Part shown: positions 54,327 to 62,759 of the stretch, in pieces | Layout: each line of letters begins with the position of its first letter | Position numbering within the stretch: the stretch's first letter is position 1 | From: Verrucomicrobiota bacterium | GTDB taxonomy: Bacteria; Verrucomicrobiota; Verrucomicrobiia; Chthoniobacterales; Chthoniobacteraceae | Direction: 5' to 3' | NCBI GenBank assembly: GCA_003402745.1 | Contig: QQND01000004.1 | Location: 1-64,000 of the forward strand | DNA: 64,000 bases | Program-made: the position numbers and the translations under genes | The notes under the pieces: model-generated | Database searches by the model: none | Seen by the model: the letters and a program-made list of their open reading frames with translations, nothing else | Told to the model about the DNA's origin: nothing

Positions 54327-55568
54327 TTAGCAAGCGGCAGCAGTGGGGTTGAGGTGGCGGCTCATTTTTTGCCAGAAGGGAAAGAAGCCAGCGGTGGCAA
54401 AGGAGAAGGCGATGGTATCTGACGGTCTGCGGATGAGGGTGAGAGGAATCTTTAAAGCTTCGAGTTGCTGCTTTAGGCGGGGCAGAAGGTCTCGGGTTGG
54501 CCCGACCATGGGCGCGAAGGCAATCACGTCCGTAAGTGCCTGGTCCCTGGCCCAAACTCCAAGTGCTTGTGCCTGATCGTCTGCTGCAAGAACGGTTGCT
54601 GGACACCCGTAGTGTGCCTGAGCGCGCTCCATCCCGTCACGAATCACGGTGTGGAGCGATGCGATGCGCTGGGAGCTGAGATGGTAGTTTGCCTGGTAGA
54701 CGCTGTTACTGATACACGAGAAGATCGCCGCCGGAGCGAGGTCCCTCAGCGGGCCTATTTCAGGAGAGAGGTCATCTGCGTGCATCCACAATCCGATGCG
54801 TTTTGAGGTCTGAGAGAATGAGGTGGGATACTGAACAAGTGCCTGTGCGCCAGGGGTTGCTGTGTCCTGAATCACGCGGGCGCTCACAATATCATCTGCA
54901 AGGCGTTCGCTGCCGGTCGCATTCTCGCGGAGGTAAGAGGGCGCATATTTCTCGAGGTTTGAGAGGCGCACAAGGTATGTCTTTCCAGGGGTTTGCAGGC
55001 CGGCGACCCAGCGCCACGAAAGCGTGTTGCTGGCGGGATCGGCATCCAAGAGATGCCTGAAGAAGAAATCAGCACCAAGCTCCCATGGAAGTTGTTCGAC
55101 GTGGACCCAAAAGCTGGCCCACCACATGCGAGCGTGGTTGTGAAGGTAGCCTGTTTCGAGCAGTTCCCGGGCAATTTTATCCATGCAGTCCACGCCGCTC
55201 CGAGCGGCTGAGACGGCCCGGGCCCTCGCCAAAGTCTCCGCTGGAAGCACGTGTTTCAACTCGCGTACCTGACGGCGCCAAAGGCTCCAAACCTGCGGGT
55301 GCGTCTCCAGCCAGCCCCGCCAATAGCGGCGCCAGCAAATTTCCTGGAGCCACTTTTCAGCCGTCCGAAAAGAGTGTGTTTTGAGGGTGTCGTGGATGAT
55401 TTCGTCCTCGAGCAAGGTCCGGAAGCGAATGCACGCACTCAGACGCGAAACATTTTCGTGGCCGGGCTGCACGCTGTTTCTAGCGCCTGCATACGCGGCC
55501 ACCTTTGGGAGGAAATCGGCCCAAGTGTTGAGTGCATCTTGGCGGGTTAACGGTGTAAAGGGGTTCAT
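54327..55568 (-). CDS. Photolyase/cryptochrome-family FAD-binding protein, apparent swapped domain order
   Basis: N-terminal half matches the photolyase FAD domain (SRLSACIRFRTL, AEKWLQEICWRRYWRGWL, GYLHNHARMWWASFWVH...WELGADFFFRHLLDADPASNTLSWRWVAG); C-terminal half looks like the alpha/beta antenna domain (IGLWMHADDLSPEIGPL...FFPFWQKM). Confidence 0.85.
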   Translation of the reverse strand: MNPFTPLTRQDALNTWADFLPKVAAYAGARNSVQPGHENVSRLSACIRFRTLLEDEIIHDTLKTHSFRTAEKWLQEICWRRYWRGWLETHPQVWSLWRRQVRELKHVLPAETLARARAVSAARSGVDCMDKIARELLETGYLHNHARMWWASFWVHVEQLPWELGADFFFRHLLDADPASNTLSWRWVAGLQTPGKTYLVRLSNLEKYAPSYLRENATGSERLADDIVSARVIQDTATPGAQALVQYPTSFSQTSKRIGLWMHADDLSPEIGPLRDLAPAAIFSCISNSVYQANYHLSSQRIASLHTVIRDGMERAQAHYGCPATVLAADDQAQALGVWARDQALTDVIAFAPMVGPTRDLLPRLKQQLEALKIPLTLIRRPSDTIAFSFATAGFFPFWQKMSRHLNPTAAAC

Positions 55569-55722: not shown

Positions 55723-56814
55723 TTGAAAATGACAGACTACCAAATTAAGACCGCCCGGCGGCGGCTAGTTTTGGGCATTTCGAATGTTGGTTTTTGGGTG
55801 CTAGCATCCTTGGGCTGCCTCGCATGGTTTGCTGCGCCGGGTGCGGCTGCGATCAGTCCAACTTACCTGGTCGGGTTGATGCTCGTGGCGGTGGGGGTTC
55901 AGGCGTGTTTTGACGGGGTGGGAGGCGCTTTTTTGATGCCGGCCCCCTTGGTGGAATTTGGGGTGTTCCTGAGGCGTTGGGTCAGAGGCGTTGCTGCCCA
56001 CACCACCCTGCTTTGCGCGGTGGGGGGCCTGAGCTACTGGAGCTTCCGGCTGACTGAGGGCTTCTGCGTTGGGGTTGTGGCTTCCTCGCTGGGACTTTTT
56101 CTCTTTCGCAGGCAGATTTTGCGTCTGGTTTCAGGCCTTCCCGCGCGCCCGTTCTTGTCCGCGGGGCCTGCGTGCTGGAGTGCGGATTCCTCGGACCCCT
56201 CCTTCACCGGAGGAACTTGCGGCATGGGATCCACGGCGATGATTCTTTTGCCGGGGCCGTGGACGTCAGATCTCAACGCGGCTGAACTTCAGACGGTCAT
56301 TCAAAGAAGGGTTTGGGAGATCAAAAACAACCTCCCTGCTCGCTCCTTTTTGTTCGCTCTATCTTGGAACTTGGCGGGATGCAGAGTCGGTTCGCTTCTT
56401 TTGGAACTCCCTAACCGTTTGCCGGAATCCGCGATGCTTCTTCAAGGGTGCTGGATGACAGTGTGGGGCTTCCTCGGGCTGTTGATTCTTCCCACCGTAA
56501 GCCGGAGCTCGGTATTCGGCGCAGATCGTGCGACTGCGGCACAAGGGTTTGACTCAATCGCTTGGATTCAGCGGTTCCCAAAAATGACGGGTGAGGATGG
56601 CAACCCTAAGACGCTTTTGCAGCGGGTGTTTTATCCCATTCCTTCGGCGCAAGAGCGGTTGGACTGCCTGGAGAGGTCGCCCGTCCTTCCGATTTTTGGG
56701 AATGTAGCCCGAACCAATTTGTTTTTGTCATTGGCAACGCTGACCTTTCTTGGAAGGTGCGTTCACTGCAATGTCGGGCGTCCCGAGCTTTGGGTTTTTC
56801 CGCCCTCCGACTAG
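55723..56814 (+). CDS. Membrane protein resembling M48 metallopeptidase but lacking HExxH
   Basis: Hydrophobic N-terminal helices; AMILLPGPWTSDLNAAELQTVIQRRVWEIKNN and YPIPSAQERLDCLERS align by eye to M48 segments. Confidence 0.5.
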   Translation: MKMTDYQIKTARRRLVLGISNVGFWVLASLGCLAWFAAPGAAAISPTYLVGLMLVAVGVQACFDGVGGAFLMPAPLVEFGVFLRRWVRGVAAHTTLLCAVGGLSYWSFRLTEGFCVGVVASSLGLFLFRRQILRLVSGLPARPFLSAGPACWSADSSDPSFTGGTCGMGSTAMILLPGPWTSDLNAAELQTVIQRRVWEIKNNLPARSFLFALSWNLAGCRVGSLLLELPNRLPESAMLLQGCWMTVWGFLGLLILPTVSRSSVFGADRATAAQGFDSIAWIQRFPKMTGEDGNPKTLLQRVFYPIPSAQERLDCLERSPVLPIFGNVARTNLFLSLATLTFLGRCVHCNVGRPELWVFPPSD

Positions 56815-58580: not shown

Positions 58581-61500
58581 TTACCGGGAATCAGCCAGCC
58601 TGCCTTTTGGAAGTGCAAAGGCCACCCAGGTGTCCCCGGCGGGACCGCCTAACTTTCCGCCGCCGGTGGCTGGTTGGAGAATGAACTGCCGCCCTTCGGC
58701 CTCGTAGGAGGAGGGCGGCGCCGTGCCGTGCAAGGGAAGCGATTGGCTCCACAACTCCGCGCCGGTGGATGCGTCGAAGGCGCGGATTTTCTTGTCGCGA
58801 GTGCCGCTGACGAAGACGAGGCCGGAGGAGGTCACTATCGCGCCACCAAAATTTTCCTGCCCGGTTTTTGGAACGCCTTTTTCTTTGAGTTCAGGATATT
58901 CGCCCAAGGGAACGCTCCAGGCGGTTTCGCCCGTATTCAGGTTGATGCAGTTAAGAGTGCCCCAGGGCGTGGAGCAGGCCGGGTATCCGTTGGAATCGAG
59001 GAGGCGGTTGAAGCCGGAGAAAGTCCATTCTTTACCCTTTGAGGCGCCCTGGGGGGCGGAGGGGCGGTCGCGGCAAAGCACAAAATCGAGGAGGGGTTGA
59101 AGTTGTTCTTCGGTGAGGTGCGGCATGGGAGGCATGGAGGCGCGGCCTGTTTTCAGGATGGCTCGCACATCCGGTTCGGCGAGGCGGTGCCGGAGACCGC
59201 GCATGGGCGGCGCGTGGCCGAGTCCTTTGCGGTCGGGGCCGTGGCAAGCCGAGCAGTTGGTTTGGTAGATTTGTTCGCCAGCGCTTGGGGGAAGCAAGGG
59301 GGCGGGGTCGTCATCCCGGAAACAGGTGATGCTCCAGGGGATTTCGTTGGAGGTGACGTATAGAAAGCCTTTTGGATCGGCGGCTGCACCGGTCCATTCG
59401 GCGCCGCCGTGGATATTAAAGAGGAGGGTGGGGCGGGCTTCATCGAAGGAAGGAAAGGGGCCGAGATTGGCGCGATCAAGAAGCGGAAGGAGGGCGGCGC
59501 GGGCCTCGGGGTTGGAGGGCATATCGGCGCGGGTGTAGGCTTGGCGGGCGAAGGGTTGGGGGAGTTCGGGGGCGGGTTGGTAGACTGCGGTGGAATCGCC
59601 GGGCAGCCCGTGGGTGTCGACGCGCACGAAGCGGAAATCGTACAGGGGCTCGCCCGTGACGCGGTCGAGCAGGAGGGTGTTACCGAGTTTGGTGACTTGG
59701 GCGAGGGCGTCGACGCGGCGGCCGTGGCGTTCGACAGTGACGAGGTTGGGGGGCGCGGGGATGTCCCAGTCCCAGATATCGTGGCGGAGCTCCTGGAAGT
59801 GCCAGAGTCGTTTGCCGTTTGTGGCGTCGAGGGCCAGGACGCAGTTGGAAAAGAGGTTGTCGCCCTGGTGGTTAATGCCGATGAAATTGGGTTTGGGGGA
59901 ACCGAGGCTAATGAAAGCGATTCCCCGGGACTCGTCCATGGCCATGCCTCCCCAGCAATTCGCGCCGCTTTCAAGTTTACTCCAGGTTTCGTTGCCGAAT
60001 TCGCCCGCAGGCGGACGTGTCTTGAATGTCCACAACAACTTGCCGTCCCTTGCGTCAAACCCGTACACATCCCCTCCGTAACCGGGCAGGACGAAAATGT
60101 GGCCGTGCAGCGCTCCGACCGCCGTGGTGCCGGTGGGCACCTGGGTTTTTCCACCGGTGCCAAAGCCTTCCACGGGCAAGCCTGTGTCGGGGTGCAGAGC
60201 GATCAACCAGTTGCCGTCCCCAAAGAGAAGGCGAGGTGGGGCGATGGCGTCTCCCTTCCAATAGAGCAGGCCGCGCCGGGCGGGGTTGGAGGATTCGCCT
60301 CCGATGAGCGTTTTTGGGGCAAACCGCCAGCGTTCTTTCCCGGTGGCGGCGTCCACGGCGACGATGTTTTTGCCGGGCGTTGGGGTGAACATTGTTCCAT
60401 GAACAACGATGGGGTTGCACTGGATGTTAGCGTTCCCGTCCCCGCTGCGGTAGGTCCACGCCGGCTCGAGTTGGGCGACGTTTTCGCGGGTGATTTGTTT
60501 CAAGTTCGAAAATCGATTGGAGGTGGGGCCTCCCAGAGAGCGTTCCCAGTTGCCAGAGCTGGTGTCCGAGGGCCAGCCATTGGCCGGGGTGAGCCGCTCC
60601 GGTTTGGCTGCGGGCAGAATGAAGCTCGAGGCGAGTTGGCTGCGGTCGAGTTCGGGGATGGGGGCAATGGCGGCGGCCTGCGCCGGGGTGGCTGGCAGGG
60701 CCTCAAAATCCCACAGCCCGAGGGTGGTGGCGTCGGTTTTTAAGGGTGCGTCTCCTGGCGCGCTGATTTCGCGTTCTCCGGAGGAAATGCGGACATTGTC
60801 GAGAAGGCCGTCGCAGCTGGGCCTGCCTTCTACGAGTGCGCCCAGAGCAAGTCCACCCGGTATTGGCGTGCCGACCCGTGGGCGCAACGGGGCTTCTTTC
60901 ACGAGTTTGCCATCGACGTAAAGGCGCACTTTTTCGGGGCCGATCGTGGCGGCGAGCGCGTGCCACGTTCCATCGCAGACGTTGATTTCACTGCGGATTT
61001 CGCCCCCGCGGCCCGGCATGTAGAGACTGAGGAATCCAGATTTTGAGTAGGTGTAGAGTTCCCAATGGTCGGCGGAGGCCTTGGTGTCGGAGGCCACAAG
61101 AATGTTAAAACTGGTGGCGGAGTTGAGTTTCGCGCGGCACTCCACGCTTAGGGGAGGGGTGCGGTAGGAGTCTTTGCCCTCGAGTGCGAGACTGCCATGG
61201 AGGGCGTTTCCGAATGCCGGCGAGAGGGAGGGGACGCTGGTGGCGGAGGCGCTGCTTGGGGCGGCTTTGGCCCCGGCCGGAGCTGGGGTGGCGTTAAAAG
61301 AGCGTGGGACGGGTTTGGGGCCGGCGGGGTCTCCTTGGAGTTGGGGAGTGAGCCAGCGGAGCCCTTCGAGATTGTCCTGCAGGCGCGCCTCGGCGTCTTC
61401 GCCGGTGTGGTTGAGGATGCCGATTGGTCCGGTATAGCCGCTTTTGGCGATGATTTTGAGGAGAGAAAGGTCTTCCGTGCCTATCCCCAGGGGGAGGATT

Positions 61501-62264
61501 TTGCGGCCGACTTGATCCCCTCTAATATCCATCCCATTGAGGTTTAGAAAAATCAAGTGGGGCTTCATGCGCTCGAGCAGCTCCTTGAATCCTTCGATGT
61601 GGCCGTGGCCGTGATGTTGGTTATAGACCAGCCCCACGTTTGAAAAGCCCTCCGCTTTGAGAGCGTTGAGGATCTCGATTTGGTTGTCGGGTTCGCCAAA
61701 CCAAGAGCCATGATTGTAGAGGCCCACGGTGAGCCCGTCGGCTCTGGCAGCTTCCGCAATGGGTTTGAGTCGGCGCACTTCATTGGCGACCCGGCGGGCT
61801 TGTTCCTCGGCGGAATCCGCCTTCAGGGAACCTCCGCCACCGCTCACCCAGAGCTGGGGTTTGAAGTGGTGTTTGCGGAAGAGTTCGAGAGCGGTGAGGG
61901 CTTCCGGGTTGAGGCTGCCAGGAAACCACCACCCAGTGAGGTCAACATGGTGGCGTTTGAGCGCCTCCATTTCGGCGTCCCATTCTAGGATGTGTTCTTT
62001 CCGGTAGTCGTAGACAAACTTACTAAAACCCAGCTTTTCGAGCATTTCGGCCCTTTGTTCCGGGTTGCGCTTGCCTTTGTCGAAGGGAACGATGCACCAG
62101 GCCGCCAAGTTTGAGCTTCGGAAAAGCTCGGGAGATTTTTGTGCGGGAGCCGCACTCGCGGGCTGGGAGGGGGGAGTTGCCGCCTGGACGGGCGGGGCAA
62201 GGGCGCTGAGGGCAAACGCGGCGAGCGCGGATAGCGTGTGATTTAGGAGAAACGTGGTTTTCAT
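58581..62264 (-). CDS. Secreted multidomain protein: sugar-isomerase-like TIM barrel + LamG + PQQ-type beta-propeller dehydrogenase with internal cytochrome c
   Basis: Signal peptide from 62264; GLYNHGSWFGEPDNQIEILNALKAEGFSNVGLVYNQHHGHGH (xylose-isomerase-like TIM); DGTWHALAATIGPEKVRLYVDGKLV (LamG); PQQ propeller repeats; YQTNCSACHGPDRKGLG (CxxCH). Confidence 0.85.
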   Translation of the reverse strand: MKTTFLLNHTLSALAAFALSALAPPVQAATPPSQPASAAPAQKSPELFRSSNLAAWCIVPFDKGKRNPEQRAEMLEKLGFSKFVYDYRKEHILEWDAEMEALKRHHVDLTGWWFPGSLNPEALTALELFRKHHFKPQLWVSGGGGSLKADSAEEQARRVANEVRRLKPIAEAARADGLTVGLYNHGSWFGEPDNQIEILNALKAEGFSNVGLVYNQHHGHGHIEGFKELLERMKPHLIFLNLNGMDIRGDQVGRKILPLGIGTEDLSLLKIIAKSGYTGPIGILNHTGEDAEARLQDNLEGLRWLTPQLQGDPAGPKPVPRSFNATPAPAGAKAAPSSASATSVPSLSPAFGNALHGSLALEGKDSYRTPPLSVECRAKLNSATSFNILVASDTKASADHWELYTYSKSGFLSLYMPGRGGEIRSEINVCDGTWHALAATIGPEKVRLYVDGKLVKEAPLRPRVGTPIPGGLALGALVEGRPSCDGLLDNVRISSGEREISAPGDAPLKTDATTLGLWDFEALPATPAQAAAIAPIPELDRSQLASSFILPAAKPERLTPANGWPSDTSSGNWERSLGGPTSNRFSNLKQITRENVAQLEPAWTYRSGDGNANIQCNPIVVHGTMFTPTPGKNIVAVDAATGKERWRFAPKTLIGGESSNPARRGLLYWKGDAIAPPRLLFGDGNWLIALHPDTGLPVEGFGTGGKTQVPTGTTAVGALHGHIFVLPGYGGDVYGFDARDGKLLWTFKTRPPAGEFGNETWSKLESGANCWGGMAMDESRGIAFISLGSPKPNFIGINHQGDNLFSNCVLALDATNGKRLWHFQELRHDIWDWDIPAPPNLVTVERHGRRVDALAQVTKLGNTLLLDRVTGEPLYDFRFVRVDTHGLPGDSTAVYQPAPELPQPFARQAYTRADMPSNPEARAALLPLLDRANLGPFPSFDEARPTLLFNIHGGAEWTGAAADPKGFLYVTSNEIPWSITCFRDDDPAPLLPPSAGEQIYQTNCSACHGPDRKGLGHAPPMRGLRHRLAEPDVRAILKTGRASMPPMPHLTEEQLQPLLDFVLCRDRPSAPQGASKGKEWTFSGFNRLLDSNGYPACSTPWGTLNCINLNTGETAWSVPLGEYPELKEKGVPKTGQENFGGAIVTSSGLVFVSGTRDKKIRAFDASTGAELWSQSLPLHGTAPPSSYEAEGRQFILQPATGGGKLGGPAGDTWVAFALPKGRLADSR

Positions 62265-62759
62265 GAGAGCGGGGGAGCGGTGTTTTTTACAGGCCTGACA
62301 GCGGAGGATTGGAGTTTTGGAAAAGGAGGGACCGCACCACGGTGGCGTGCTCATTGGGGAAGTTGGCGGCGGTAGTGACGGACTTGGGGCAAGTCGTTGG
62401 CGAGTTTCAACGGGGTGTAGAGGGGTAAATCCTCCAAAACTGTAAGCGAGCCGGGGGGTGGGGGCTAGAACCCAGGCGTCTAGTTTGTGTATCTACGCGC
62501 CAAATTAGGATTCTACTTTGGCGCTCGAAGGGTGCAGGAAAGGGGCCCGACCCTCTGGCTCTTAACGGTCAGGTTCGTACTGTAAATGCCTGGATTCAAT
62601 TAAAGTGGAGCGGCAAGGATAGCCCTCAAAGAGTTGGGGAAGGTGCGTGTTTGTGAAAGATCTTTCCGCCAAGGCAGCCGGCAGGTTAGGGCTCCAAGAG
62701 GAAGAGAGCCGCAGCACGAAGAGAAAAAGGGAAGGGGTTCTTCCCAGGAGCGGGAGAGC

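Follow-up and report, generated by a model that had tools for sequence, protein, structure and literature searches.

The window analysed here is a stretch of 64,000 nucleotides from a genome of the phylum Verrucomicrobiota (contig QQND01000004.1). At 54327–55568 on the minus strand it carries an open reading frame of 413 amino acids with an ATG start and no internal stops; the frame, its full-length conservation and its AlphaFold model mark a complete gene for a predicted photolyase of the NewPHL type. This gene is solitary on its strand, flanked by a DUF1501 protein and by an uncharacterised 363-residue protein with no Pfam match (55723–56814, plus strand), which is also found near the photolyase gene in the loci L001 (65% identity), L031, L063 and L047. 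Elsewhere in the window, at 58581–62354 on the minus strand, a 1257-residue protein carries a TIM-barrel (AP_endonuc_2), a laminin-G-like domain, a PQQ dehydrogenase propeller and a cytochrome c.

By scanning bacterial genomes, we found relatives of the window protein encoded by 127 stretches, the best 80 of which are all, judging by their titles, from Verrucomicrobiota and show 40–73% identity over nearly the complete length. These conserved relatives exclude an assembly accident as the source of an open frame in which the usual order of photolyase domains is reversed. Of 195 genomes sampled across the phylum, nine, including the window's own, have a strong match (E ≤ 3.4e-58); the remaining matches covered the FAD domain alone and almost always lay in open frames of the length usual for canonical proteins. 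Phage records searched for the same protein yielded partial matches to the FAD domain and none at full length. At L133:331-2523, a 731-residue open frame shows NewPHL homology from residue 321 onward, reflecting either a fusion or a mere upstream open frame.

An AlphaFold2 model of the whole protein, built from an alignment of 59 sequences (pLDDT 94.4, pTM 0.91), is helical in its N-terminal half and ends in a domain of five strands interspersed with helices. The N-terminal half is the catalytic FAD domain (residues ~6–215, 54924..55553, minus strand), all helical and identified by PF03441, PDB matches, a residue map and its fold. PF03441 (FAD_binding_7) matched residues 73–204 with an E-value of 5.8e-22, covering profile positions 1–131 of 203, so that the last ~70 positions are missing from this domain. 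Sequence matches in the PDB were 1dnp, 1owl and 1tez, with phmmer pairing residues 35–199 with residues 229–396 of E. coli photolyase 1dnp, and structure comparison of the model showed a resemblance to photolyase structures. When aligned with class I photolyases, among them the one encoded in the same genome, the protein proved to lack the ~200-residue antenna domain that comes before the canonical FAD domain. A reading made previously from the sequence alone (the sequence-only reading) had placed the start of the FAD domain about 45 residues in; the helices at 9–29 and 44–49 align where the helical domain of canonical proteins starts, and homology begins near residue 6–9.

A tblastn search of plasmids returned full-length homologues from Niveispirillum, Peteryoungia and Ruegeria TM1040 that contain both domains (34–36% identity, ~96% coverage) and are annotated as 'FAD-binding domain-containing proteins'; Ruegeria is a member of the Roseobacteraceae and a close relative of D. 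shibae. These alphaproteobacterial comparators are presumed orthologues of the characterised NewPHLs A8LJA9 and M7YZC8, and the class membership of the window protein rests on them. Two Deinococcus plasmids also encode inverted photolyases (L086:2839-4206 and L087:2824-4239), in which a cluster of cysteines, RYCAGCPLADAECPF, accompanies a C-terminal domain resembling PF00875. In a tree of FAD domains, a branch with 100/100 support parts all inverted-order proteins from all canonical ones, and the window protein forms one group (95/92) with the verrucomicrobial and alphaproteobacterial proteins, with which it shares common descent, leaving Deinococcus outside. Within this group the window protein falls into a Verrucomicrobiota-only subgroup (97/94), whose sister is a mixed subgroup containing the alphaproteobacterial proteins (99/86). 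The tree program gave a long-branch warning, and the branching order of the deep groups is therefore less sure than the split between inverted and canonical proteins; moreover, since the window subgroup is sister to that of the characterised members, a drift of function is possible.

We took the positions contacting the CPD and FAD to be those assigned from the A. nidulans and E. coli photolyase structures. At these sites the window protein has the residues of class I enzymes, the sole exception being a Glu in place of D177 in the class I enzyme of the same genome, and E76, W79, N144, M148, N181, D175, D177, W187, W185 and W162 are invariant in all 59 aligned sequences. This conservation favours CPD repair as the predicted activity, and the His-His positions of eukaryotic (6-4) photolyases presumably correspond to Asn and Met in the window protein. 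W185 and W162 are, we assume, the inner two tryptophans of the electron relay. The distal one (E. coli W306) is replaced by A110, and none of the inverted proteins in the alignment has it; W94, which never varies among the 59 relatives and occurs in most other inverted proteins, may stand in for it. Relatives carry W, Y or F at position 97, and the C-terminal domain has its own invariant sets, W261/H263/D266 and R315/G356/R381. It is possible, although unlikely, that W94 with W/Y/F97 and the invariant C-terminal residues reflect a specificity or an electron path peculiar to the Verrucomicrobiota-rich subgroup, which would imply a different substrate or a C-terminal domain with a function beyond merely covering the FAD.

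A linker (residues ~216–256, 54801..54923), for which the AlphaFold model predicts little helix or strand, leads to the five-stranded alpha/beta C-terminal domain (residues ~257–413, 54330..54800, both on the minus strand), which its model, Foldseek and hhalign point to as a divergent relative of the antenna domain in photolyases. Because Foldseek comparison is sequential, the whole-protein model matched over essentially one half (TM ~0.45), and the C-terminal domain was therefore modelled separately, giving the same five-stranded fold at a pLDDT of 90.7. Pfam returned nothing useful for this domain alone, with PF00875 unmatched there and seen in one of 59 relatives at an E-value of 0.068, so that kinship to the antenna had to be established from the fold and from profile alignments. 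Most PDB neighbours of the isolated model were photolyases or cryptochromes (CryB, PhrB, the Caulobacter (6-4) enzyme, cryptochrome 3, and class I and II enzymes), with a query-normalised TM of up to 0.60. The matched part of these proteins is probably their antenna domain, as the alpha/beta fold and the profile alignments suggest; the Foldseek output leaves the region unstated.

Universal-stress-protein-like (Usp) folds were also among the structural neighbours, one Usp domain having the best E-value, and a profile of window-type C-terminal domains aligned directly to 26 canonical antenna domains with a probability of only 27% (score 30.5, 118 columns in register). Both observations would fit a truncated canonical photolyase joined to an unrelated alpha/beta domain, for example a Usp-like one, with no reversed antenna. 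However, TM values to most photolyases (0.50–0.60) exceed those to Usp folds (0.42–0.50), and the direct profile similarity, although weak, lies clearly above the controls, which scored 21.7 for a Usp profile and no more than 17.2 for any of 20 column-shuffled profiles. Merging all of the C-terminal domains into one profile lowered the direct score (27 against 30), and the argument for an antenna origin therefore runs through Deinococcus, whose inverted proteins have a C-terminal domain near PF00875 (E 7.2e-4 in L086), unlike that of the window protein. By hhalign, the window-type domain connects to the Deinococcus C-terminal domain at 92.9%, and the latter connects to the canonical antenna at 97.6%, whereas Usp reaches 4–6%; a further comparison linked the window domain to those of the alphaproteobacterial NewPHL-type proteins at 99.3%. 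An unrelated C-terminal domain is thus quite unlikely. The sequence-only reading, whose quoted motifs are all present in the 413-residue frame, had proposed a reversed domain order, FAD first and antenna-like domain second, and this is borne out by the N-terminal position of PF03441 and by the agreement of the model, the photolyase fold match and the Deinococcus bridge. Its likening of the last ~155 residues to an antenna domain is likewise upheld, including an LVWFRRDLRL-type start, since GLWMHADDLSPEIGPL of the window domain aligned to AVVWVHGDRLSPTNEAL in the bridge alignment; for the proposed VFTPFW-type end, the likeness of FFPFW to VFTPFW found weak support.

The same reading had treated the architecture as new unless it proved to belong to a described subfamily, and our literature check found that it does. 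According to PMC9426592 and PMC13274461, which cite Emmerich et al. 2020, NewPHL or short photolyase-like (SPL) proteins have an N-terminal FAD domain and a C-terminal 'Z-domain' and repair CPDs in ssDNA; PMC13274461 uses both names and describes an inverted domain topology. PMC9426592 places this activity of NewPHL/Phr7 in D. shibae and M. mesophilicum. The two NewPHLs studied biochemically are both alphaproteobacterial. Like these proteins, including Phr7 of Prochlorococcus, the window protein has an N-terminal FAD domain with no antenna before it, a short, antenna-like Z-domain, a length of ~400 residues, a CPD-type site and no Fe-S cysteines, and it groups in the tree with the alphaproteobacterial members; it differs from them in belonging to a sister, Verrucomicrobiota-rich subgroup. 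We conclude that it is very probably a NewPHL/SPL photolyase, with the catalytic FAD domain first and a shrunken, diverged antenna-like domain second, and predict repair of CPDs in ssDNA. The window gene is a further bacterial example of a reversed architecture known since 2020, and novelty is unsupported.

Two canonical-order families share part of this profile. Class I CPD photolyases (E. coli PhrB, and L094 in the same genome) have the same FAD-domain fold and CPD-site residues, but differ in their N-terminal antenna, full-length FAD domain, distal Trp and an Arg at the position of H145; assignment to this class was rejected, as there was no PF00875 match and nothing ahead of the window FAD domain. 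DASH photolyases/cryptochromes probably share the niche of CPDs in ssDNA, but have the canonical order. This assignment was also rejected, with the window protein scoring 60.3 bits on TIGR02765 against a cut-off of 317 and not having the canonical domain order.

Besides the window gene, the host genome (69% complete) contains a class I photolyase gene and a PF04244 (FeS-BCP-type) gene; when further photolyase-like genes from the host and related genomes were scored, none reached the DASH cut-off. Within 4 kb of the relatives' genes, among the best 80 loci, we observed a PF04244 protein in 13, a canonical-order photolyase/cryptochrome in 13 (L047, L049, L055, L059, L063, L067, L069, L070, L071, L073, L076, L077 and L078), a radical-SAM protein in eight and a flavin amine oxidoreductase in 19; DUF4130, a frequent neighbour of the radical-SAM protein, occurred in 10 of 80. 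At least one of the PF04244, photolyase and radical-SAM proteins was present in 30 of the 80 loci, although these loci are related to one another and the counts are therefore not independent. In genomes with a NewPHL gene, second genes of similar size cluster with cryptochromes of haloarchaea, those scored falling below the DASH cut-off.

The separate class I gene could make repair by the window protein redundant, and repair has been lost repeatedly among photolyase-fold proteins, which would suit a light-sensing cryptochrome with the same fold and chromophore that signals and does not repair. Such a role is very unlikely, given the invariance of E76, W79, N144, M148 and W187, the absence of a signalling extension, the repair genes neighbouring the relatives and the DNA repair by published class members. 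Highly improbable, too, is an inverted (6-4) photolyase of the kind of Phr4/Phr5 and Phr6 from Synechococcus and Cyanobium. This second inverted form, with Fe-S cysteines, shares the reversed order, and the published tree places Phr4/Phr6 closest to Phr7/NewPHL (PMC9426592). However, alignment found in the window protein no Fe-S cysteine cluster like that of all Phr4/Phr6, the C-terminal domain of the protein is unrecognised as PF00875, and a separate PF04244 (6-4)-type gene is present in the genome. The cysteines of the window protein (46, 78, 128, 285, 322 and 413) also avoid the positions of the Deinococcus cluster, identified by eye. The Deinococcus proteins L086 and L087, with the same reversed FAD-antenna order, appear to be single-gene relatives of Phr6 from cyanobacteria that join Z-domains to antenna domains.

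For the window protein as a NewPHL/SPL photolyase, the most likely function is light-driven repair of CPDs in ssDNA without an antenna pigment, the ssDNA preference and the missing pigment being adopted from published members of the class. The protein would bind FAD, as we infer from that class, and blue light would excite FADH-. A cyclobutane pyrimidine dimer, turned out into the pocket, would accept an electron from the excited FADH- and split, and the electron would return. The C-terminal domain would pack over the FAD site, taking the place of the end that this FAD domain lacks relative to canonical ones, and would harvest no light. The substrate would probably be CPDs in ssDNA, a role held elsewhere by DASH-type photolyases.

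We recognised no NewPHL structure among the PDB entries searched, and any member is therefore a reasonable target for structure determination. The host offers one genome in which a NewPHL gene occurs together with class I and FeS-BCP-type genes and a DASH gene went undetected. Verrucomicrobiota members find no mention in the literature that we found on the NewPHL/SPL class. This class has been proposed to sit close to the root of the photolyase family, and the present analysis adds to it a large subgroup from Verrucomicrobiota.
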